Shown here piece after piece: positions 52,456 to 64,000 of a stretch of 64,000 bases of DNA. The position numbers and the translations under genes are program-made. The stretch's first letter is position 1; each line of letters begins with the position of its first letter. The stretch comes from Falciphora oryzae (lineage: Eukaryota; Ascomycota; Sordariomycetes; Magnaporthales; Magnaporthaceae): positions 434,001 through 498,000 of the forward strand of contig JNVV01000003.1 of assembly GCA_000733355.1 (NCBI GenBank), read 5' to 3'. Below the pieces are notes generated by a model. It worked only from the letters and a program-made list of their open reading frames with translations, was not told where the DNA came from and ran no database searches.

Positions 52456-53968
52456 AAATACTTTTTATCCTTCATCCGGTCATTTCCTCACTTCCAAATT
52501 GGCCGCCGCTTGCCGGAACCAATAGCGCTTGCCCCCTGCTACGCCAGCTCTAGTTCATTCCGATCCTAGCCACTCATCAAATTCGCTTCCTGGATGTCAA
52601 ATCCCGAACATAGGCAGCATCAGGGGGCAGAGAGAGGCCCTGCCACTTCTGGTCGGGACGCCTGTGATGGTGGTCCGACGGCGGCGGCTCCAGGCGTCGG
52701 ACTTTCGCGATTTGCCACAGCGCTCCCAGGGCGTGAGACGACAGCGGTTTCGTCTCGTCCTCGCACCGATGTCGACAGTGGCCTGAAGCACCTGTGCGTG
52801 TAGGACATTCGGCTGCCCGGCCAAGCACGGCCACGCCCGTCTCGGGTGGCAGCGCAGAATCCGTCCAATATAAAGCACTGGGCCAGCTGCCGCGAGCCGT
52901 CCTACGGAACCGTGCTGACGCTTCATGTTTTTTTTTTTTTTTCCCTTTCCGTAACGCATCTTCCATCGATAGCCGGTGAAAGCCCCCTTGTGCGTCGTCA
53001 CTGGTTGCAATACTATCAACTAACACGAAATACCTATTTCGGCATACTTGCCTCGCCGACGATGTTGGCCTGCGCTCACTTGTGCTGCTCGCTGAGTGGG
53101 CGAACAATAAGAGCAAATTTCGCCAACTACCTATCCCTGTGTCCTCCCGGCGGCCGGTACTTTTGCACTTTGTCAACCTTAGCCTTGCTGGCGCGCTACC
53201 AGTAGATTGATATCCAAGCACATACTCAGCTCGCCACGGAGGCGTGATGATTGGCGCTGAGGCCTTGTGGTGATGAGGGGGATTTCGTTGGCTTTCCGGA
53301 CTTTGCCACGCCCGACATTGATGATCACTATGGCGCTGACCATCCTCATTACTCGCTTCTGACCCAGTGAGATCGCTCCCGTTGTGATAGAACGAACAAT
53401 CAACGGCCGCAGGCTCACATAATTTACTTGTCTCGGCTTCAACCAGCCTTTGAACTGGGACAAATTGGAACGAGACTACCGCGAAAGGGGAATCGGTTAT
53501 GAGTGCCAAGGCGGGGGAGGCTGCATGGAGCGCGTCAAACAGGCCTGTTTGGTGCACTTTGGTTGGCCGACGAACTGTTTCCAGCGACGCGTGCATTAGC
53601 GCCCGAGACAGCGGATACCTACATATGCACGGACATGGATGCTGGATCAGCCTGCATCGACAGCACAGAGGAGGGGTCCGCCCTAATCGAGTCACTGGCG
53701 CTTGATATTGAGAACCGTGCTGCGGCACTTGAACAAGGGAAAACATGCGATTGCTCGCCACGGTACCCATGTGACTTGTAGATCGTTAAAGATGTGGGTG
53801 TGGCCCGCACCCTTCGGCATCGGGATTCTTCAATCATCCTCCTAGCTGAAACACGGGACTGGTGCTGAGAGAGCACCAATGGCTTGAGATACACCAAGTT
53901 CGGCCTTATCTCTCCCATCAACATGTCCGCCGTTCTCATATACCTCAGTTCGGCCTCTCTCGTCAAAG
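52456..53968. other. Spacer with one possible exon fragment
   Basis: Mostly featureless. A plus-strand frame at about 53560-53781 reads protein-like, with LALDIENRAAALEQGKTCDC, ending just before the S28 gene, but I found no start or splice partner. It may be a relic exon. A 397-codon antisense frame across the region has no family features. Confidence 0.35.
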
Positions 53969-55836
53969 ATGATTTTTTCATTAATGCCCCTCGTGATCCA
54001 GACTGCCCAGCTCCTCGGTGTCGGTACGCCAGCAACGGACGTCACCGAAGGCGGATGCGACTTCAAATGGATGACCCAGTCTGTTGATCATTTCGGCCAT
54101 GGCAACGCCGCGTTTCGGCAGCGGTACAGTATCTCTACCGAACACTTCCGACCCGGAGGCCCTATTCTGTTCTTCCAGGGGGAGGAAACCGTTGTCCTGG
54201 ATTGCGTGGTACGTGAGGGGAGCTTGGGGTTTGCTACGACCCAACTAATCAACGGCACTTTAGGACACGACCGCGGCAATGTGGTTCGCTGAACATCTCG
54301 GGGGGTTGGCGGTATCTCTCGAGCATCGCTATTTTGGACAGAGCCTTCCGTTCGGGGACGATTCATACCTTGACGATAACCTTGGCCTGCTGACTCTCGA
54401 CAATGTCATGGCCGATGCTGTGGCCTTCGTCGAGATGATCCAGGAAAGCATTCCCGGGGCAAAGAATAGCAAGTGCATCGTCATGAGCGGTAGGGACCAC
54501 GCAATCGATTCTTGGTTTCAACCGACTATGACACAACTGACAATCTCCAGGCTCGTATGGCGGTTTCCTCGTCACGGCCTTTCGCCAGAATCACCCTAAC
54601 ACCTTCTTCGCTTCTCTTGCTGCAGCAGGTCCCACCATCGGCCTCTCGGCTGCGTCGACTACCCCCCAGCCAGATCAATTTCTCTTTCGAAGATATGTCA
54701 GTGTACAAGTTACTTCGGTCTGCCGAGGCGCGATAGACAAGCGGCTACCTGGTTGGGGTTGAAATAGGCTCACTAACCCGCCGCCCGTCACCCAACCGCA
54801 TCTAGGCTTCACGGTCTTACGTGGATCGTTCTGTAAGAGCGTCTAGAAGAATCAAGAAAGCACTTGACCTCATCCAGCATGAAATCGAGTCTGGTGGGTA
54901 CAACGCCGATGCTCGCACCTCAACTTCGGCCCATCGCGCTAGGCTCACACAGCACGTCACATAGGCCATGCCAAAAGGATCCAGCAGAACCTCGGGCTCT
55001 GCAACGCCCCGACAAACGATCTCGAGTCCATATTGACCCTTCAGCAGCTCTACTCAGTGGCGTTTACTTTGGCAGTAGAGTTCAACTATGCTGTAGCACG
55101 GCCCGGGCGGACACCTGTCGCCCGCTCTTTCGATCGCACCATCGACATAGCTCTCCATGCCGAGAACCCCATGGAGATCCTAAACAGCACCTTGTGGCTC
55201 TTGTATGAGGACCAGGGGTATGAATGTATTGACTGGAGCAATACAACCTTTGTTCAGCAACTCGTTCCTCTCATTCAATGGACTCCATGGAGCTATATAA
55301 TGTGTAAGCTTGCTTGTCCCGGCAGAACCAAAAGTGCGGTCGTAGCTGTATTGACTGGAATTTACAGGTTCCTACGTGCCCCTTTGTGCAAGCGCCACCC
55401 CCGAAGGTACCATCTTTCCCCCGTATCAGGACGGCTGCCTTTTACAAAAAGACTACTGTGCTCGAACCTACAATGCTCGTCTCCTGACCGAGCAGGAGGT
55501 GTGGGATCGATATCGCCTGGGCCCAGAAGCGTTGAACAACTCGACGCGCATCATCTTTTCTGTGGGCGAATTCGACCCGACTACAGCAGTGGTCGGTGCC
55601 CGTCCGCCCCGGACTGGAGATCTGTGTCGATCCCAACGCATCTTCACAAGCGAGATGGCACACAGAGAAGAGTTGTTCTACCCTATGCTCGACGACAAGC
55701 CAGAGGTTGTAGTAGTGAGTGTGCCCATGCCCTACAGATTGAAGACGTGATCTAATAGATAGCTAACTCAACGGTACTGCAGCTGCGAAGCAAAGAATTG
55801 CAGATCATGAAGCAATGGTTGCACTTCTGTGATTAA
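53969..55836 (+). CDS. S28 serine peptidase (prolyl carboxypeptidase type)
   Basis: Seven exons (53969-54208, 54264-54489, 54551-54696, 54806-54893, 54965-55303, 55368-55714, 55783-55836) give 479 residues. Family marks in order: QSVDHFGHGN, GGPILFFQGEE, LEHRYFGQSLPFG, LTLDNVMADA, GSYGGFLVTAFRQNHP (nucleophile Ser157), FAVEFNY-type FTLAVEFNYAV, then VGEFDPTTAV (Asp416) and EMAHREEL (His445). The triad is complete. S28 enzymes (prolyl carboxypeptidase, DPP2) cut next to proline and are usually secreted or lysosomal/vacuolar; the N-terminus here (MIFSLMPLVIQTAQ) is a short, weak signal, and a further 5' exon is possible. One intron interrupts the codon just before the Ser. Its Pro preference and closeness to the borosin gene make it a possible leader-processing enzyme, by inference. 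Confidence 0.85.
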
Positions 55837-56203: not shown

Positions 56204-58291
56204 TTAGATGTGAGGCAGAGCACCAACCCAACTGGGCGTTTCATACGCAGCAGCCGGTAGCCAGCGGACACTGATCAGCGACTCCACCAGTAGATACAAA
56301 GAGAAGGTAAAGATACATAGGAAAGCAGGCAACCGGACAGTCGCCATCGACACCAGCGACCCAGCTTGCAAAAATGCGGCCTCGACGCACAACCACAGCC
56401 AGGGAATGACGACAAGACCGATGCAGCTGATACGCCAAAGTAGCCTCTCCGCGGGCGTAGGGAAGAAGCTGTTCCAGGCCAACATATGCCCCGCCGCCGT
56501 CCAAGTGAATGCTACGTTCACGGCGGCTCTTGGGTACAGATGTGAGAACCTCCCTGGCCGGTCGTACGCGGCCTGCAGGCACTTGAGGAGCCCGGGCGCC
56601 GCAGACAGGGCTTCCCCGCTGGGCCGTGTGCCGATGAATGTGGCCTGGTAGCCATGTTTGAGCTTGGACTCGGCATCCTCGGTTGTGCCAGTCGTGGTGT
56701 CCGCGCACCCCTGATTACTTTTCGATGCCTCACGGATGCGGCGAGCTCCCATCTGCATCTCTTCTATCTCGCCACGACTCAGATCGAACGTCTCCCCGCT
56801 GTTGTTGGCTCCACAAAAGCGGACCAGGATGTTGTCCGTGATCACCAGTGACTCTCCCGGGAGGAGAAGAATGTCGCCGCCCCTTCTCCGCTGCAACAGC
56901 TGCTCGCGGTCCCATCCCGGAACTGACACCTCCGCATTCGAAATCAACGAGCGGTTCGTCTCCACAACCACAACGGTTTGGATGCCGTCACCCCTGCCAA
57001 AGACCCTCGTTGGTCTCCGCTTTGTAGGATCCCCAGGGATAAGCCACGTCCCGGAGGGAGCGTCAGTATGTCGGTCCTGAAGATGACAATCGTGACCAGG
57101 GAGTTGCTGGGTCTGAGGTGGCTTGCGCTCGGCTTCAGGGGCATCCCCGTTCGGAGGGTGGGTGTTTCCAAGAGCATCGGCAGCCTCTTGAAGGGAAGTT
57201 CCATCCACGGCGGCCAGTGTGAGGTCAGAGGGGGGAGTGAGGGTAATGTCAGGGGGTAGGGCGGGGGTAATTTCAGGAGTAGGAGTAGGGCTAGTGCCTA
57301 GAGGAGTAGGGTTGGGATCACGAGATGGAGTCGGCGTAGCGCCGGAGTCGACGGTGTCTCTTGGTGCGTGGGCCGTATCATCGCGGGGTGCCAACATCGC
57401 TGCATCGCTAGGGGAAGGAGCCGACAAGGGTGCTTCTTTTCCGTCTGATACTCTCTCCGAGGCAGAGAAGCCGGGAAGAACAGCCATCAAGACCGGCTTG
57501 TCGGAGTGGTAAACGATGGTCAGGGCGTTTCCAATCTCGTCATGCTTGATGGCGGAGATGGGCTGGCAAACACCCAGGGGTTTATGCCACCAGAACCCGT
57601 AAATGAACGCCGTCCACAGCACTTTGACAGCAACATGGAGCTCCAAAAGCGTCACTGGCAAGCGTTCGGCGAAGCGAGCCAAGCATACAATAGTCAGCCA
57701 GATCGCCTGCAGCAGTGCTAAGGCCTTGGCTAGCGAATCTGCCTTTCCGCGGTCGGAGATGAGTTGCTTGTTTATTGCGGTTGGGGAGATGGCACCGTCA
57801 TCTATCAACTGTTTGAAACTTGCCGCGTCCAGGACCTTTGGGTAACGACCGTAGTAGTCGCAAGGCCCAACCGTGTATCCCCCCATGACGACGAAGAATG
57901 CGCCTGCGCGACCGAGCCGATCCTCCTCGCTCCCGGGCTTGACTGAAAGTTTCCTGCACCACCACTTGTGTAGATCTCGCGCGGTCATCCACTGATAAGC
58001 GGCACCCAACGCTGCATATTCGGACACGACGAGTGTGTAGACCATCCAGAGGGCCTTAGACAGCAGTCGATCCTGCCAGGTGCCGTTCTCCACCACCTCA
58101 TCATGGATGACGGTCCAGCAGGTTATGATAAGAGTGGCAAGGCAGCTTTGCAGGATGCTCCAAGTCCCACGTCCATGAGGCTCAGGGCGCCAGGACTCAG
58201 CTGCCTCATCTGCAGTGGCCCCGAGGCCAGGGTCAGATCCAAATAGGAGAATTAAGACAAAGGTCAACAGCGAGGCTCGTAAAAGGGTCAT
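56204..58291 (-). CDS. Large multi-pass fungal membrane protein
   Basis: A single exon from ATG 58291 gives 695 residues. A signal-like N-terminus (MTLLRASLLTFVLILLFG) precedes GRGTWSILQSCLATLIITCWTV, a segment I know from a widespread uncharacterised Pezizomycotina membrane family. Further membrane segments lie near 80-110, 200-260 (with FIYGFWWHKPLGV) and four at the C-terminus. Between them is a disordered loop rich in Pro/Thr (repeated PTP and LTPPSD words, about 320-410). The frame is open a little farther upstream without another ATG. Function is unknown; no catalytic motif is seen. Convergent with the S28 gene. Confidence 0.75.
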   Translation of the reverse strand: MTLLRASLLTFVLILLFGSDPGLGATADEAAESWRPEPHGRGTWSILQSCLATLIITCWTVIHDEVVENGTWQDRLLSKALWMVYTLVVSEYAALGAAYQWMTARDLHKWWCRKLSVKPGSEEDRLGRAGAFFVVMGGYTVGPCDYYGRYPKVLDAASFKQLIDDGAISPTAINKQLISDRGKADSLAKALALLQAIWLTIVCLARFAERLPVTLLELHVAVKVLWTAFIYGFWWHKPLGVCQPISAIKHDEIGNALTIVYHSDKPVLMAVLPGFSASERVSDGKEAPLSAPSPSDAAMLAPRDDTAHAPRDTVDSGATPTPSRDPNPTPLGTSPTPTPEITPALPPDITLTPPSDLTLAAVDGTSLQEAADALGNTHPPNGDAPEAERKPPQTQQLPGHDCHLQDRHTDAPSGTWLIPGDPTKRRPTRVFGRGDGIQTVVVVETNRSLISNAEVSVPGWDREQLLQRRRGGDILLLPGESLVITDNILVRFCGANNSGETFDLSRGEIEEMQMGARRIREASKSNQGCADTTTGTTEDAESKLKHGYQATFIGTRPSGEALSAAPGLLKCLQAAYDRPGRFSHLYPRAAVNVAFTWTAAGHMLAWNSFFPTPAERLLWRISCIGLVVIPWLWLCVEAAFLQAGSLVSMATVRLPAFLCIFTFSLYLLVESLISVRWLPAAAYETPSWVGALPHI

Positions 58292-58939
58292 CGTGGTAAA
58301 TGGGCTCTTGGCAAGGCTGCTTGATAAAAATGTCAAATTATATCCGTTTTGAATAGCAGAGATAGGTAGTATTAGCCACAAAAGCCAAACTGAATGGAGC
58401 AAAGGTCAATGAGGGATAGTAGCGATAGTAGCGCAAAGAGCGAGAGACAAGCTTGCGGTGGAAGGGCTCAATATCACCGGACCCCGCCCCCACCCTCCAC
58501 GAGAAACTCACGTCACTCTCTCCCAACTTTGCTAGCAATGAAAAGGAAACACGGTCGAAGTCATCACTTGTAAAGCGCCACGATTCCAAAAGCCATCCGG
58601 AGGGAAGACTCCCGCGACTCCTTCTCACGGGACTGACATCAACGCCCAATGGGGCCGAGGCAGGGTGATACCAAAGGGTAAAAAATATCCAAGTTGAGGC
58701 TTACAGGTGGAAAAGGTAGTCTTGGGCAGAGATTGGGTCTTAACGGTGCCCAAGCGTCGCTAAGTGATTCGTCTGGCCCACAGCCTTGCCGCCCGGGGCA
58801 ATGCACCATAATCACCTGCGGCTCGTGATCAACATACTGATGTATGTGAAAAGATAGGTACCTAGGTAGAGAAGTACCTACCACCTAGATATCGGCCATT
58901 CTCCACAAGGTGCCGGGCTCAGCCACCAGAAGCAATTAA
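58292..58939. other. Promoter-side spacer before the MITE
   Basis: 648 bp with no gene. Short TAGGTACC/GTACCTA words cluster near 58855-58885, a pattern common in fungal intergenic DNA. Confidence 0.4.
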
Positions 58940-59940
58940 GGGGCTGTTCAATACTATGCGGTTTTTGGTTTTTTGACCCCCCTTGTGGTTTTTTGCCTTG
59001 ATTTAAGCTTAATTCTCGACGTGGGGACAACGCCCGGGGTCCGTTCATGTATATTTGGGCCTGGTTGTCGGTGGATTCCCATCCAGGGGCGACACGAAAC
59101 GTCCATCTGTCGCAAAGGAGCGGGCCACCACGGGGGATGGTAGCAAACCCTGGTATTAGTTGTTAAAAACCTTTGCTATTTTCGGCCCGTTGCGCGGCGC
59201 GTACCGATTAAAAGCGATAAAAAAAATATTTATTAGATAGAGTAAAAAAGGCGAATTGAACAGTTTATTTTTTATATTAAATGGATAAAAATTGCGGTTA
59301 AAATAAACGAATTAATTTGGTGCACCTTACCGGATGCGACCCGCGGGTATCAGCGGGTAGGGGCTTGTCACGGCATGGAGGGGGTCTCCCAGGCGCACGG
59401 GCCTGGCAGCCGATTAGATAAGCCCCTCCCAAGCAGTGCACGGCACGCGCCCAGGCCTCCGGCCTCGATTTCTCCCAATACATCTCTCTTTTGGCCACCT
59501 TTTGCAGCCGCCCCAGCCGCCGTGACAGGGCTAGAGAAAATGGCGGCAAAGGAGATTTGTATTTAGAAGGAAGCCAGGCCGGAGGCCTGGGGCCTGGAGA
59601 AAATCTCTATCTACTGTGGCCTGGAGGCCCGTGCTGAGGCCTGGGCACGTGACGGGCCCGAGGGGCCCCTTCGTGCCGTGACAGCGGGCCGGCCAGCTTT
59701 GTCCCTCCTAGACCTTCCCAGACCCTCCCTGATTGAAGGCCACAAGTGGCTTACAGGGCCTCCATCCAGGCGACTCGTTGGCCTGGTCAAAATGGTACTT
59801 CTGGCGGGGCAAAAGCTATATTTACTAGGCGTTTCACCGGGATTTGGGCCGGGGGGTCTCGGATCCACCAGCGGTTTTTCAAGCGGTTGGCAAAAATAGT
59901 ATGGAAAAAACCAAAAACCACGATAGTATTGAACAGCCCC
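58940..59940. mobile_element. PIF/Harbinger-like MITE
   Basis: A 1001-bp unit with terminal inverted repeats: both ends read GGGGCTGTTCAATACTAT going inward, followed by GGTTTTTGGTTTTTT. It is flanked by TAA on each side (58937-58939 and 59941-59943). A 3-bp TWA target duplication and G-rich ends are the PIF/Harbinger pattern. No transposase frame is present, so it is non-autonomous. The inside has an AT-rich core (59210-59320) and GGCCTGGAGGCC-rich sequence. A related copy starts at 63546. Confidence 0.88.
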
Positions 59941-59943
59941 TAA

Positions 59944-60510
59944 CTAGGAACCCCGTCGGCTCAAGCTACATGCCGACGCCTGAAGGCCTGATACCAGCCG
60001 TTGGGCAGTGACGCCCACATGGTTGCCGCCTGGAAGCTGGCGTCCAGGCCTGCCGAAATATATTCCCGAAGGCCTTCTCCATCCCTCATCCGACGGCACT
60101 CGACGTGGCACCAGCCGGTCTCTTTCATCCGGCAGTATGCAGAAGAGGCCAAGTAATGCGAGACCGTCGGTTTAAAGTCCCCAATCCTTTGCTGAGTACC
60201 TTCCTACTTAGGTACTTACTTACACGCAACAGCGCCTGAAGGTGCAGTTGGGCATTGTTGATTAACAGGTCCCATGAGTAAAGGCTCCCGCAACCAAGGA
60301 GCCACCGAAGATTTGTCTGGATATAAATGACCGAATTGTATGTTTAGGGGAGGAGCTGTTACGAGTTCCAAGCTCTCTATAGCGACACCCTTGCCACGCT
60401 AGTACGTCATCCGCCTGAACCTTGTGCGCCCTTTATTCAACCGAACCTTGCAGCGTCACTCCCCTCCTTCTGCATCCCAGCTCTCACGGCACAGCCGGTC
60501 CATACAAGAC
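59944..60510. promoter_or_regulatory. Borosin gene promoter region and a possible relic exon
   Basis: A TATA box (ATATAAATGA, about 60321) lies about 190 nt before the borosin ATG. On the minus strand, 60150-59961 reads a short protein-like piece (GLREYISAGLDASFQAATMW) ending next to the MITE; it may be a relic. No other gene seen. Confidence 0.5.
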
Positions 60511-61957
60511 ATGCCCGAGGGAAGCCTGGTAATTGTTGGATCAGGGATCCGCAGTATCGCCCAATTCACGCTAGAGTCAATAATGAACATAGAGAGAGCA
60601 GACAAGGTTTTCTACTGCGTCTGCGATGCTGCCACAGCAGGCTACATCAAGGGGAAGAATAAGGAGGCGATCGATCTGTACGAGTACTATGCCAACTCCA
60701 AGCCGAGAGACGAGACCTATGTCGAGATGTCTGAGGTAAGATAACATGTTATCAGTGTGTTTCAAATGCAATATATTCACGCCGATATGTGGCGGCTGAC
60801 TGGCAATGCAGGTCATGCTGGAATCCGTACGTGCCGGGCTGAATGTCGTGGGCGTCTTCTACGGCCATGCCGGCAATTTCGTGTCTCCAACCCGGCGGGC
60901 CCTCACGATTGCTAGAAGCGAGGGCTACAAGTCCGTAATGCTTCCAGGGATCTCCGCCGAGGACTGTCTCTTTGCCGATCTCCTCATCGATCCGTCGTAT
61001 CCCGGATCGCAGACTGTCGAGGCTACCGACCTCATTATTCGGAAACGGCCTCTGCAAACCTCGAGCCACGTCATCATCTACCAAGTGGGGTGCCTGGGTC
61101 AGCTCGACTTCAACTTCCAAGGAATAGAGGTTTGTTTTCCCAGTTTTCTCTTCGGAGCTATTTCCCCTCAGATATCACTGGTCGAGGTTGGCGTTAGCTG
61201 AACCTTTCTTCCTTTTGTTTGACAAAAAAGAAAAAAACCTTCCAGAACGACAAATTCTCCTATCTCAGCCAGCGTCTCGAGGCCGAGTACGGGTCTAGCC
61301 ATCCTGTGGTCAACTACAAGGCTGCAATCTCGCCGCTCGCTCAGCCGACCATCCAGCGCTACACGGTTGCCGACTTGTCGGCGGCCGACGTCCAAAAGAC
61401 TATCGATGGCGCCTCCACCTTCTACGTCCCGCCCAAGACCATGCTCCCTATTTCCTACCTGGACCCCATCGTAGGCACGGCCTGGGTCGGCCAGGCCGAC
61501 CGCTTCATGTATCCCCCCATCTGGGCCGATCCTTCCGAAGGTGCGCCGAGCCTCTACGGTCCACGGGAGAAGGATGTGCTGGCGAGGGCCAAGTCTCGTG
61601 TCACCCCTTCCGAGTATCGACCATATACTGCGTCTCCCGCGATGCAAGCCGCCATAGAGAAGTTGGCCCTCGATCCTGAGTATCAAGCCGCTTTTGCGGC
61701 TTCGCCAGAGGCTGTCGCGCAATCCGTCGACGGCCTGTCTCCGCACGAAGCCGCAGCGCTGGCTGGTGGCGATCCGAATGAAATCAGCATGTCAATGCTC
61801 GGAGGAGGACCCGGGAGTGTGAGTTGCATCAGTGCCTGTACTCCGCTCAACCTTATCGCAAGGGGGCAAAGACTTGCTAAAAGTTAACTCGCGACAGGGC
61901 AAACCGCATCCTCCACCGGTCGTCACCATTGTGGCCACTGGGCTCACCGAGCACTAA
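60511..61957 (+). CDS. Fused borosin precursor and alpha-N-methyltransferase (OphMA-like)
   Basis: Four exons (60511-60735, 60812-61129, 61246-61818, 61898-61957) give 391 residues. The first about 240 are a tetrapyrrole-methylase-type SAM domain: [24 protein letters not shown] (57-60), [25 protein letters not shown] and [11 protein letters not shown]. The OphMA active-site residues Tyr66, Arg72, Tyr76 and Tyr98 align with Tyr60, Arg66, Tyr70 and Tyr92 here. A clasp/leader part follows ([40 protein letters not shown]), then a Gly linker and a last exon encoding a PPP motif and a hydrophobic VVTIVATGL core with a short LTEH follower. By family the enzyme N-methylates its own C-terminal core backbone. 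The frame is open 5' of ATG 60511 without another ATG. Introns are GTAAGA..CAG, GTTTGT..CAG and GTGAGT..CAG. Confidence 0.93.
61898..61957 (+). other. Predicted borosin core-peptide exon
   Basis: The last exon alone carries the C-terminal peptide: a GKPHPPP lead-in, the aliphatic/Thr/Gly/Ala core VVTIVATGL and TEH before the stop. Core composition (Val, Ile, Gly, Ala, Thr) is like known borosin cores, and the end resembles the short acidic follower of OphMA. The exact core borders are not known. Confidence 0.7.
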
Positions 61958-62113
61958 ATGCCGGACTAGGGTAAGAGATGAGAAGCCAGGAAGGAATAAT
62001 ACATTATTAGTGGCTGTTGAAGAATCTGTGAGGAACACTACGCCTGCCTGTAATTACTGCAATATTGATCGTTTCTTTTGTTTCTTCCTTTCTGGTCATC
62101 TCGGTGAGATTTA

Positions 62114-62263
62114 GGGTAAGCGAAAACCCACCCACGGGTCCTCAAAGGACCCAAAGCTTATTTTTTTTTTTGCTAACAAAATCTGAATATAGAAACATTT
62201 TGTTAGCAAAAAAATCCAAGCTCTAGGACCCGTGGGTACCCATTTATGGGTTTTCGCCGACCC
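62114..62263. mobile_element. Short hairpin MITE
   Basis: A 150-bp near-palindrome: the left end GGGTAAGCGAAAACCCA and right end (inverted) GGGTCGGCGAAAACCCA match, then CCCACGGGTCC on both arms, and an inner perfect stem TTTTTTGCTAACAAAAT. A TA dinucleotide flanks each end, as for Tc1/mariner-type insertions. It has no coding capacity and lies 157 bp after the borosin stop codon. Confidence 0.8.
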
Positions 62264-62483
62264 TAGGTGAGAGCCATCTGAATTTCAGGCTAGATCGCGA
62301 GAAGAGAACATCCAGTTGGTTTAGCCAAAAGCACCCTGTTTCCCCCCAACAAGACGGTATACCCGTAACACGCACCGGAGGAACGGCGTGGCAGGGACAC
62401 TCCTGCGCCGTGCCTGCTCTTACCACTTTGGATAGAGACACTTGTAAACCTTGGTCAGGCCCAAAGCTGTTGCTACCTATACA

Positions 62484-63518
62484 TCAAATCTTGAAGCCAT
62501 CCGTCCTCTTTGTGAACAAGCCCTCTGGGTCCACTTTATCTCTGACCCGTCGCGCCAGCGCCTGATTCTCCGACCTCAGCCTGCCAAAATAACCTTGCCT
62601 GTAATACCCACCGTTGGCGAACAGGGGCAAGTACACGTTGGGCAAGGTCCCGTTTGCTGTCAGGGCCAGGGTACGCTCCCTCACACCACCGTACGTGGCC
62701 TGCATCGCCTGATCCACAGCCGGCCGATCTGCCTCGGGCAAAAAGCTGTAGCTGTACTCGATGATGATCCGGTCCGCGTCCTCGTCAAGATCCAGCGGGT
62801 CCCCGCCCTTTGATCTGGCCACGGCCGCCATCGACCGCGGGTGGCTGGTAGGCGGTGCTGGCGATCAGTCCCGGCATGGTGAGGACGGTTTTAGACACGG
62901 CGCGCCAATTTGCATGGATGCCCTCGAGCGCCGCGAGGCCTGGGTCCTCGGCCCCAGTGTCCGGGCTAGATGCTGCTGGCGGCGCAGGAAAAGGGGCTAT
63001 CTCGGTCCCGATGGTGTACACGCTGCCCCGGACCACGCCCTAGTTGTTCCAGCTGACCAGCTGGCTCATGGTGCGCGTCTTGCAGGTGTCGCTGAATGGC
63101 TTGATGGCGGTGAAGCTGTCGAACACGCCCGGCGGCGGGGTCGGGCCGTTGTAATACATGAGCATGGTCTAGGAGTCGATAGTGCACAGAGCCGCGCGCT
63201 CGGCTGTGAGGATTATGCCGGCCTTTGGGTCGGGGTAGTTGACGGTAAAGTCGCGGACAGCACGGAGCAGGGCGGCGTCGGTGGAGGGAGTCGAGTTGAA
63301 GAAATAATTCCCGCCTCAGATAAGCCCCTGAGGGTAAACCTGCACCACGAAGGCTGTCACGATTCCAAACCTATTGCCTCCCCCTTGAAGTACCTTGAAG
63401 AGATATGGATGGGACGCCCGGGTGACCGTAACAACGGAGGCGTTCGCCAAGACTAATTCGTAGGCCACGACGCTGTTGGCTGCCCACCCGTATTCGGTCA
63501 AAATGAAACTTGGACCTC
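62484..63518 (-). pseudogene. Broken FAD-linked oxidase (BBE-like), 5' half missing
   Basis: The C-terminal half of a berberine-bridge-type FAD oxidase is readable: GGPSFILTEYGWAANSVV and LQGGGNRFGIVTAF (FAD-binding part), then the substrate-binding part and a C-terminus with NGGYYRQGYFGRLRSE and FTKRTDGFKI. It is broken by TGA (63316-63318), TAG (63169-63171), TAG (63040-63042) and a frameshift near 62829. The first and second stops sit where Trp is expected, so TGG-to-TGA/TAG changes explain them. The piece starts at a good acceptor (CACTTAG, 63519); 26 bp upstream the Harbinger-like element begins, so the 5' half is displaced or lost. Downstream of the borosin gene and convergent with it, it may once have been a tailoring oxidase. 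Confidence 0.8.
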
Positions 63519-63545
63519 CTAAGTGAGAAAGAGGTTAGAATGTTA

Positions 63546-64000
63546 GGGCATGTTCAATACTAAAGCGGTTTTTTGGTTTTTCCATACTATTTTTAAAACT
63601 CGTTGGAAAACTGGTTTGCGGATCTGAGCTAGGGGCTCCCTGGCCCTTGTAAAAAGTCTAATAAATATAGCTTTTGACCCGCCAGAAGTACTTTTTTTAA
63701 CCCCCTGGCCGGTTTTTTTTAACCTTATTTAGGCTCAATTCTCGATGTTGAAACAACGCCCGGGGTAGCCCTGTGCCCGTTCATGTATATTTGGGCCTGA
63801 TTTTCGGTGAGTTCACATCCAGGGGATACAAAGAACGTCTATTTATAAAAAGCAAAGGGCACAGACGCTCAAAATAGAAGCTATTCCCAAAAATAATAAC
63901 GACCCGTGCAAAGTCGTAATCCAGGGTCAAAGCAGGCCGGAATAGCCTCACATTCTAGCGGGTCCGAAGGGCCTCTGGGGCCGGCGGTAAGCTCGTTCGA
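63546..64000. mobile_element. Second PIF/Harbinger-like element, cut by the window end
   Basis: Starts GGGCATGTTCAATACT after a TTA (63543-63545), the TWA target type. The first about 150 bp match the inverted right arm of the 58940-59940 MITE (shared words CCATACTATTTTT, AATATAGCTTTTG, CCGCCAGAAGTAC), and the next part matches that MITE's left arm (CAACGCCCGGGGT, GTTCATGTATATTTGGGCCTG). The other end and any transposase lie outside the window. Confidence 0.8.

Follow-up and report, generated by a model that had tools for sequence, protein, structure and literature searches.

The window analysed here, a stretch of 64,000 nucleotides (C3:434001-498000) from the 50.18 Mb Falciphora oryzae genome of 123 contigs, carries a gene that very probably encodes a fused, type I-like borosin precursor, predicted from its sequence to methylate the tail of its own chain. 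According to a 2021 paper, no ribosomal peptide pathways other than those of the borosins were known to methylate the peptide backbone (PMC8429565), and backbone methylation is a property wanted in drug-like peptides. The features of fused borosins that can be read from sequence are all present in this protein: the methyltransferase domain, the five catalytic residues, the clasp and, as far as the spliced gene model holds, a core on the same chain. The separate precursor protein of split borosins (type IV and later) is not found, the precursor peptide being fused. The original prediction of an intact OphMA-type methyltransferase joined to a hydrophobic C-terminal peptide is upheld by a match to OphMA at E ~1e-107, by the conserved catalytic residues and by the hydrophobic tail. 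Its coordinates, strand and four exons are likewise borne out, the frame of 391 codons staying open across GT-AG introns:

60511-61957, plus strand: borosin gene, four phase-0 exons, GT-AG introns, 391 codons open.
60511-60735, plus strand: exon 1, residues 1-75, methyltransferase domain from its SAM-binding start, with Y57, Y60, R66 and Y70.
60736-60811 and 61130-61245, plus strand: introns 1 and 2, GT-AG.
60812-61129, plus strand: exon 2, residues 76-181, methyltransferase domain with Y92.
61246-61818, plus strand: exon 3, residues 182-372, from the last part of the methyltransferase domain through the clasp (up to Met365) into the linker.
61819-61897, plus strand: intron 3, GT-AG; the core peptide is reached only after its removal.
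61898-61957, plus strand: exon 4, residues 373-391 and stop codon; GKPHPPP, then the putative core and follower.

The best PDB matches of the protein in a HMMER search are dbOphMA (1e-108) and OphMA (3e-107), over residues 3-364. They are followed by MroMA1 of Mycena rosella (1.3e-74, residues 3-364), homologous in methyltransferase and clasp but more distant than OphMA, and by SonM (~6e-38) of the type IV split borosin SonM/SonA from Shewanella, whose methyltransferase is homologous and whose precursor is separate, whereas that of F. oryzae is fused. Beyond its methyltransferase domain, the protein can be aligned with the clasp of OphMA up to residue 364 and, compared with ten relatives, the clasp (residues 296-365) is gap-free up to Met365, in agreement with the recognisable clasp announced earlier. 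Residues 313-361 also weakly match the NCBIfam family Os17 NHLP (25.1 bits, below the cut-off of 40); in PMC8429565, part of the OphMA clasp is given as the homologue of SonA's helical leader domain. Equivalents of OphMA Tyr66, Arg72, Tyr76 and Tyr98 had been proposed, and all are found (Y60, R66, Y70 and Y92), together with that of Tyr63 (Y57); the correspondence was taken from the HMMER alignment to 5n0o and rechecked in the relatives' alignment, with OphMA residue names from PDB titles. Across 18 aligned sequences (the F. oryzae protein and 17 chosen relatives), Y92 is invariant and Y60, R66 and Y70 are at least 90% conserved, Y57 belonging to neither set. An AF2 model of P0001, a relative 73% identical, has OphMA entries as its best PDB matches (E 5.8e-43, TM 0.60, rmsd 23.6 over the whole chain) and reaches a target TM of 0.80 with SonM. 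From this model of a relative, a monomer built with 15 sequences (mean pLDDT 79.5, residues 252-278 and 370-390 below 50), the assignment of an OphMA-type fold can be regarded as safe; the placement of clasp and tail in it is unreliable because of the large rmsd.

A protein database search covering proteins of similar length, many of them unnamed entries, scored 7998 candidates; 233 of them reached E <=1e-30, and the best 120 of the 233 were listed. The closest of the listed relatives are P0001 from a metagenome (73% identity), Xylaria arbuscula (68%, without N-terminus), Aspergillus tamarii (61%), Wilcoxina (59%), Cladobotryum (57%) and Dactylella (51%). In both trees, drawn from 25 and 16 rows chosen from the 120 listed matches, these six and the F. 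oryzae protein form one clade (100/99), in which Dactylella, then Wilcoxina, occupy the deepest forks; Nemania and Penicillium proteins fall outside it in the 25-row tree. Constraining P0001 together with the rows that we take to be Sordariomycetes, a group named after the first tree, was not rejected (AU p 0.342). A recent transfer from basidiomycetes is unsupported in view of the separate ascomycete clade, its deepest forks and this grouping; descent within ascomycetes with many losses would fit the trees, on a thin sampling. A whole-protein search of the genome returned only the four exons of the gene itself and no second such gene. Among the 120 listed matches, none carries the name Magnaporthiopsis, Gaeumannomyces or Pyricularia, which suggests that the presence of the gene is patchy, for Rad26 proteins of these fungi are in that database. 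The Rad26-like protein of the window is 85% (Magnaporthiopsis poae), 84% (Gaeumannomyces hyphopodioides) and 57-58% (Pyricularia) identical to them, values that place the host in the Magnaporthales.

Three other proteins encountered in this search deserve mention in their own right. P0023 of the mollusc Mya arenaria (396 aa) combines an OphMA-type domain with the hydrophobic end GDVVVVAVVIIMA and looks like a fused animal borosin; fused borosins in metazoans are mentioned in PMC11395268. P0025 of Nemania sp. FL0031 (415 aa) has NTTVIVIIMLAAA close to its end; this borosin-like ascomycete protein is divergent and sits on a long branch outside the main ascomycete clade. In the metagenomic P0037 (584 aa), an OphMA-type domain is joined on one chain to a 2OG-Fe(II) oxygenase domain (PF13640, precomputed Pfam), an unusual fusion.

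After the clasp Met365, the F. oryzae chain continues with LGGGPGSGKPHPPP, then with the hydrophobic VVTIVATG and LTEH, Pro-Pro-Pro preceding the hydrophobic peptide. The clasp Met is followed by REGESDAHSNPTPP, then NTTVVVVVLLI in P0001, and by RKGYEYDPLVLDPP, then SQMITIVAPSQM in Cladobotryum. The hydrophobic, beta-branched composition of the F. oryzae tail is beyond chance: six of the eight residues of VVTIVATG are V, I or T. Of 384 stretches of eight residues in the protein, 2 reach this content, and both lie in the tail itself; among 20,000 shuffles, the share is 0.05%. The core had been read as VVTIVATGL; the hydrophobic C-terminal peptide is confirmed and its exact end is not, VVTIVATG with the follower LTEH being as likely. 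That this core is unlike that of omphalotin is correct, and it differs from mushroom cores.

Tail length separates two groups of relatives. In the six clade members with complete ends, 26 (F. oryzae), 25, 25, 22, 26 and 26 residues follow the clasp Met, against 30, 45, 39, 32, 41 and 36 in six relatives with a full clasp (P0007-P0011 and P0021), the relatives' values resting on database gene models whose ends may be wrong. The latter six constitute the clade holding Cristinia and Lentinula (support 95/93); Wilcoxina, whose gene model is without an end, was left out. Since 11 of the 12 compared sequences went into the clasp profile, their detection is by construction, but the tail lengths are independent of it. 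A compact tail of 22-26 residues is a trait of the six complete-ended members of the ascomycete clade, versus 30-45 in the other clade. By eye, Dactylella and Xylaria show about the same spacing from clasp to core as F. oryzae, without Pro before the core, and the valine run of A. tamarii begins about two residues earlier. In P0001, Xylaria and Dactylella, the tail stops where the hydrophobic run does or shortly behind it, so that little is left as a follower. In OphMA, about 42 residues follow the clasp Met (~374) in a chain of 416, and the F. oryzae linker and tail are about 16 residues shorter.

By analogy with OphMA, the N-terminal SAM-dependent domain would form a clasped homodimer in which the backbone amides of the C-terminal peptide would be methylated in trans by the partner subunit, presumably in N-to-C order. 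Since linker and tail are about 16 residues shorter than in OphMA, the reach of the core into the partner active site can only be presumed. A protease that is not an OphP-type macrocyclase may then free the methylated peptide, possibly by cutting behind the prolines, and the product may stay linear; release by another protease, perhaps with a linear product, is plausible. In the omphalotin pathway itself, OphP cyclises the peptide yet is inactive on full-length OphMA, the host protease making the first cut is stated to be unidentified, and preliminary hints point to the proteasome for release in yeast (PMC12235650). A candidate for the release step lies about 5 kb from the F. oryzae gene:

53888-55747, plus strand: S28 (Pro-X carboxypeptidase-like) peptidase gene in colinear pieces, upstream of the borosin gene; candidate release protease.

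The pieces are colinear with PF05577 (53888-54289 with positions 1-49, E 0.002; 54264-54596 with 53-120, 7.7e-13; 54541-54759 with 120-147, 6.3e-4), although 54264-54596 alone exceeds the Pfam cut-off (48.5 bits) and the later two thirds of the gene match poorly. In the PDB, lysosomal Pro-X carboxypeptidase scores best (2.9e-14), AnPEP reaching 0.003; a later piece shares a short stretch ending in GEFDP with another S28 gene of the genome (E 0.022), and one piece weakly matches PF00326 (E 0.016, below cut-off). No convincing match was obtained for the rest of the pieces, so that the gene could be a divergent or a decayed one. According to PMC11618732, ProAlanase is the S28-family enzyme AnPEP and cleaves behind Pro and Ala; it shortens peptides derived from OphMA by a cut behind the Pro that precedes the core, and does not cyclise them (PMC12235650). 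A post-proline cut in F. oryzae is suggested by the PPP before the core and the nearby S28 locus; against it, such genes are common, with six loci in the genome (one at window positions 54276-54488), and the Pro is absent from Xylaria and Dactylella. The chance that one of six S28 loci in 50 Mb falls within 7 kb of a given gene is about 0.2%, which we treat as a lead because the family was picked after looking. That an S28 protease performs the release is accordingly put forward only tentatively. The broader picture is also speculative, and on balance doubtful: ascomycetes may harbour an old borosin lineage whose compact tail brings a core of 8-12 residues to within 12-14 residues of the clasp Met. 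The N-methylated peptides of this lineage would be short, probably linear, and set free with no prolyl-oligopeptidase macrocyclase involved, in this genome by the adjacent S28 post-proline peptidase.

Alternatively, a working fused borosin could have its product excised and macrocyclised, as omphalotin is, by a serine oligopeptidase from another locus of the genome. The layout of the tail, P-core-G-short follower, resembles OphMA, which has Pro before the core and MeGly at the cyclisation site (PMC12235650). PF00326 matches 12 stretches of the genome, the only other one on the contig of the gene being at C3:315113. One of them, an aminopeptidase-like locus on contig C63, has as best PDB chain 7c72, deposited as 'Prolyl oligopeptidase' (3.8e-35), and weakly matches the macrocyclase PCY1 (~4e-4). 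Six of the 12 rows were examined and correspond to DPP4, acylaminoacyl-peptidase-like, aminopeptidase-like (C63), PD40-propeller type and esterase proteins; two more are neighbours of examined ones, and four weak rows were left unclassified. PF02897, the S9A propeller of OphP-type oligopeptidases, has 0 matches in a six-frame search of the whole genome without splicing; introns could hide it, though the same kind of search finds the six S28 loci exon by exon. The little follower left in P0001, Xylaria and Dactylella also speaks against macrocyclisation. Given the shorter tail and the lack of a detected OphP-type oligopeptidase, an omphalotin-like macrocycle is not to be assumed, and we consider it unlikely.

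The immediate surroundings of the gene raise another doubt:

58989-59944 and 63542-63842, partly direct, partly inverted: dispersed repeat copies on both sides of the borosin gene.
62112-62265: MITE-like element, about 150 bp after the borosin stop codon, at 8 genome loci, itself included.
62487-63534, minus strand: FAD-linked oxidase fragment, tail to tail with the borosin gene; 63319-63534 matches EncM (1.4e-7).

Repeat segment 59560-59944 has its inverted partner at 63542-63697, adjoining the oxidase fragment, and at least 43 matches are listed in the genome for query 59560-60110, itself included. The MITE-like element has imperfect terminal inverted repeats with 58-nt arms, 72% complementary. 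From the EncM-like piece towards 62487 the frames appear related by eye, without Pfam match, and no N-terminal part of the oxidase was seen. No P450 stretch is listed in C3:434001-528000, a lower bound with 92 of 163 candidates scored. Pfam scans of 57 ORF-piece entries of the neighbourhood (at least three pieces scanned twice, ORFs under 100-200 aa mostly left out) gave no P450 either; they matched transporters, a cutinase, a histidine kinase, Rad26-like, CTP_transf_1, JmjC, fasciclin, S28 and a sub-cut-off RCR. No RNA family reached its gathering threshold in the window. An ORF at 56207-58405 on the minus strand encodes 733 aa with no Pfam match and has two unnamed relatives only in 5.8 billion proteins. 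Since the borosin gene sits in a repeat-rich pocket among neighbours that look decayed, it could be an orphan, a former cluster member with its frame still open and no longer expressed or without a matured product; the truncated oxidase, the flanking repeats, the MITE-like element and the lack of a P450 among the listed stretches would agree with this. Against such a relic stand the 391 open codons, the consensus splice sites, the retention of every catalytic residue tested and the hydrophobic tail. The full frame and catalytic residues argue for a function, at least until recently, and we hold the relic to be quite improbable.

The fused precursor presupposes the removal of intron 3. Reading through it keeps a further 23 codons open (ORF 61219-61887) and would yield a methyltransferase without core, ending in an unrelated tail. 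This end resembles no relative, whereas the spliced tail is right in length and character: it counts about as many residues after the clasp Met as that of the closest relative (26 versus 25), which supports the last splice, and a Pro-rich stretch precedes the hydrophobic run in both. Retention of intron 3 thus appears very improbable. Finally, although Pfam detects PF00590 alone in the protein (48.6 bits), a generic tetrapyrrole methylase or diphthine synthase is ruled out by the OphMA match, E 1e-107 with the clasp included, and the other PF00590 places of the genome (on contigs C30 and C18) do not match the protein.

The predicted fused borosin of F. oryzae shares methyltransferase, clasp and catalytic residues with OphMA, dbOphMA/DbiMA1 and LedMA, the omphalotin, dendrothelin and lentinulin precursors, as well as a hydrophobic C-terminal peptide preceded by Pro (mushroom core and follower as given in the literature). 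Those proteins are from basidiomycetes, whereas this one is from an ascomycete and has another core, a tail of about 26 instead of about 42 residues, no P450 in the listed neighbourhood and, unlike an omphalotin-type cluster, no OphP-type oligopeptidase found in its genome. The A. tamarii, X. arbuscula, C. mycophilum, D. cylindrospora and P0001 proteins, uncharacterised members of its own clade at 51-73% identity, share the compact tail of 22-26 residues and differ in core sequence. The borosin set of Quijano et al. in 2019 reportedly included ascomycetes. An earlier survey is credited with about 50 fungal borosin pathways by two papers, one of them PMC8429565. The view that the best-studied fused borosins come from basidiomycetes agrees with a 2025 paper that still classes borosins as Basidiomycota RiPPs (PMC12048977). 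PMC9258550 reports a screen of three ascomycete genomes without borosins, and a survey of Hypoxylaceae and Xylaria hypoxylon with an OphMA template reports only a ustiloxin-like RiPP cluster (PMC8403587). Our literature searches found no paper for borosin and Gaeumannomyces, and none titled on a Xylaria borosin for borosin and Xylaria. By sequence, the gene is an intact ascomycete borosin, as had been pointed out, but the ascomycete host is nothing new, since hydrophobic-tailed relatives from A. tamarii, X. arbuscula, C. mycophilum and D. cylindrospora were already in public databases. The novelty lies in the species group and in the core sequence and, hypothetically, in a lineage with compact tails that matures without prolyl oligopeptidase.

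The characterised fused borosin products in the literature surveyed come from mushrooms. With a complete ascomycete precursor, a short tail and no OphP-type cyclase found, the F. oryzae system can serve to test the minimum length of the linker between clasp and core, and whether a borosin matures without prolyl oligopeptidase. If the proposed pathway is true, it would add a new release step to those of known borosin pathways and offer a candidate kind of answer to the question of which protease cuts the precursor.
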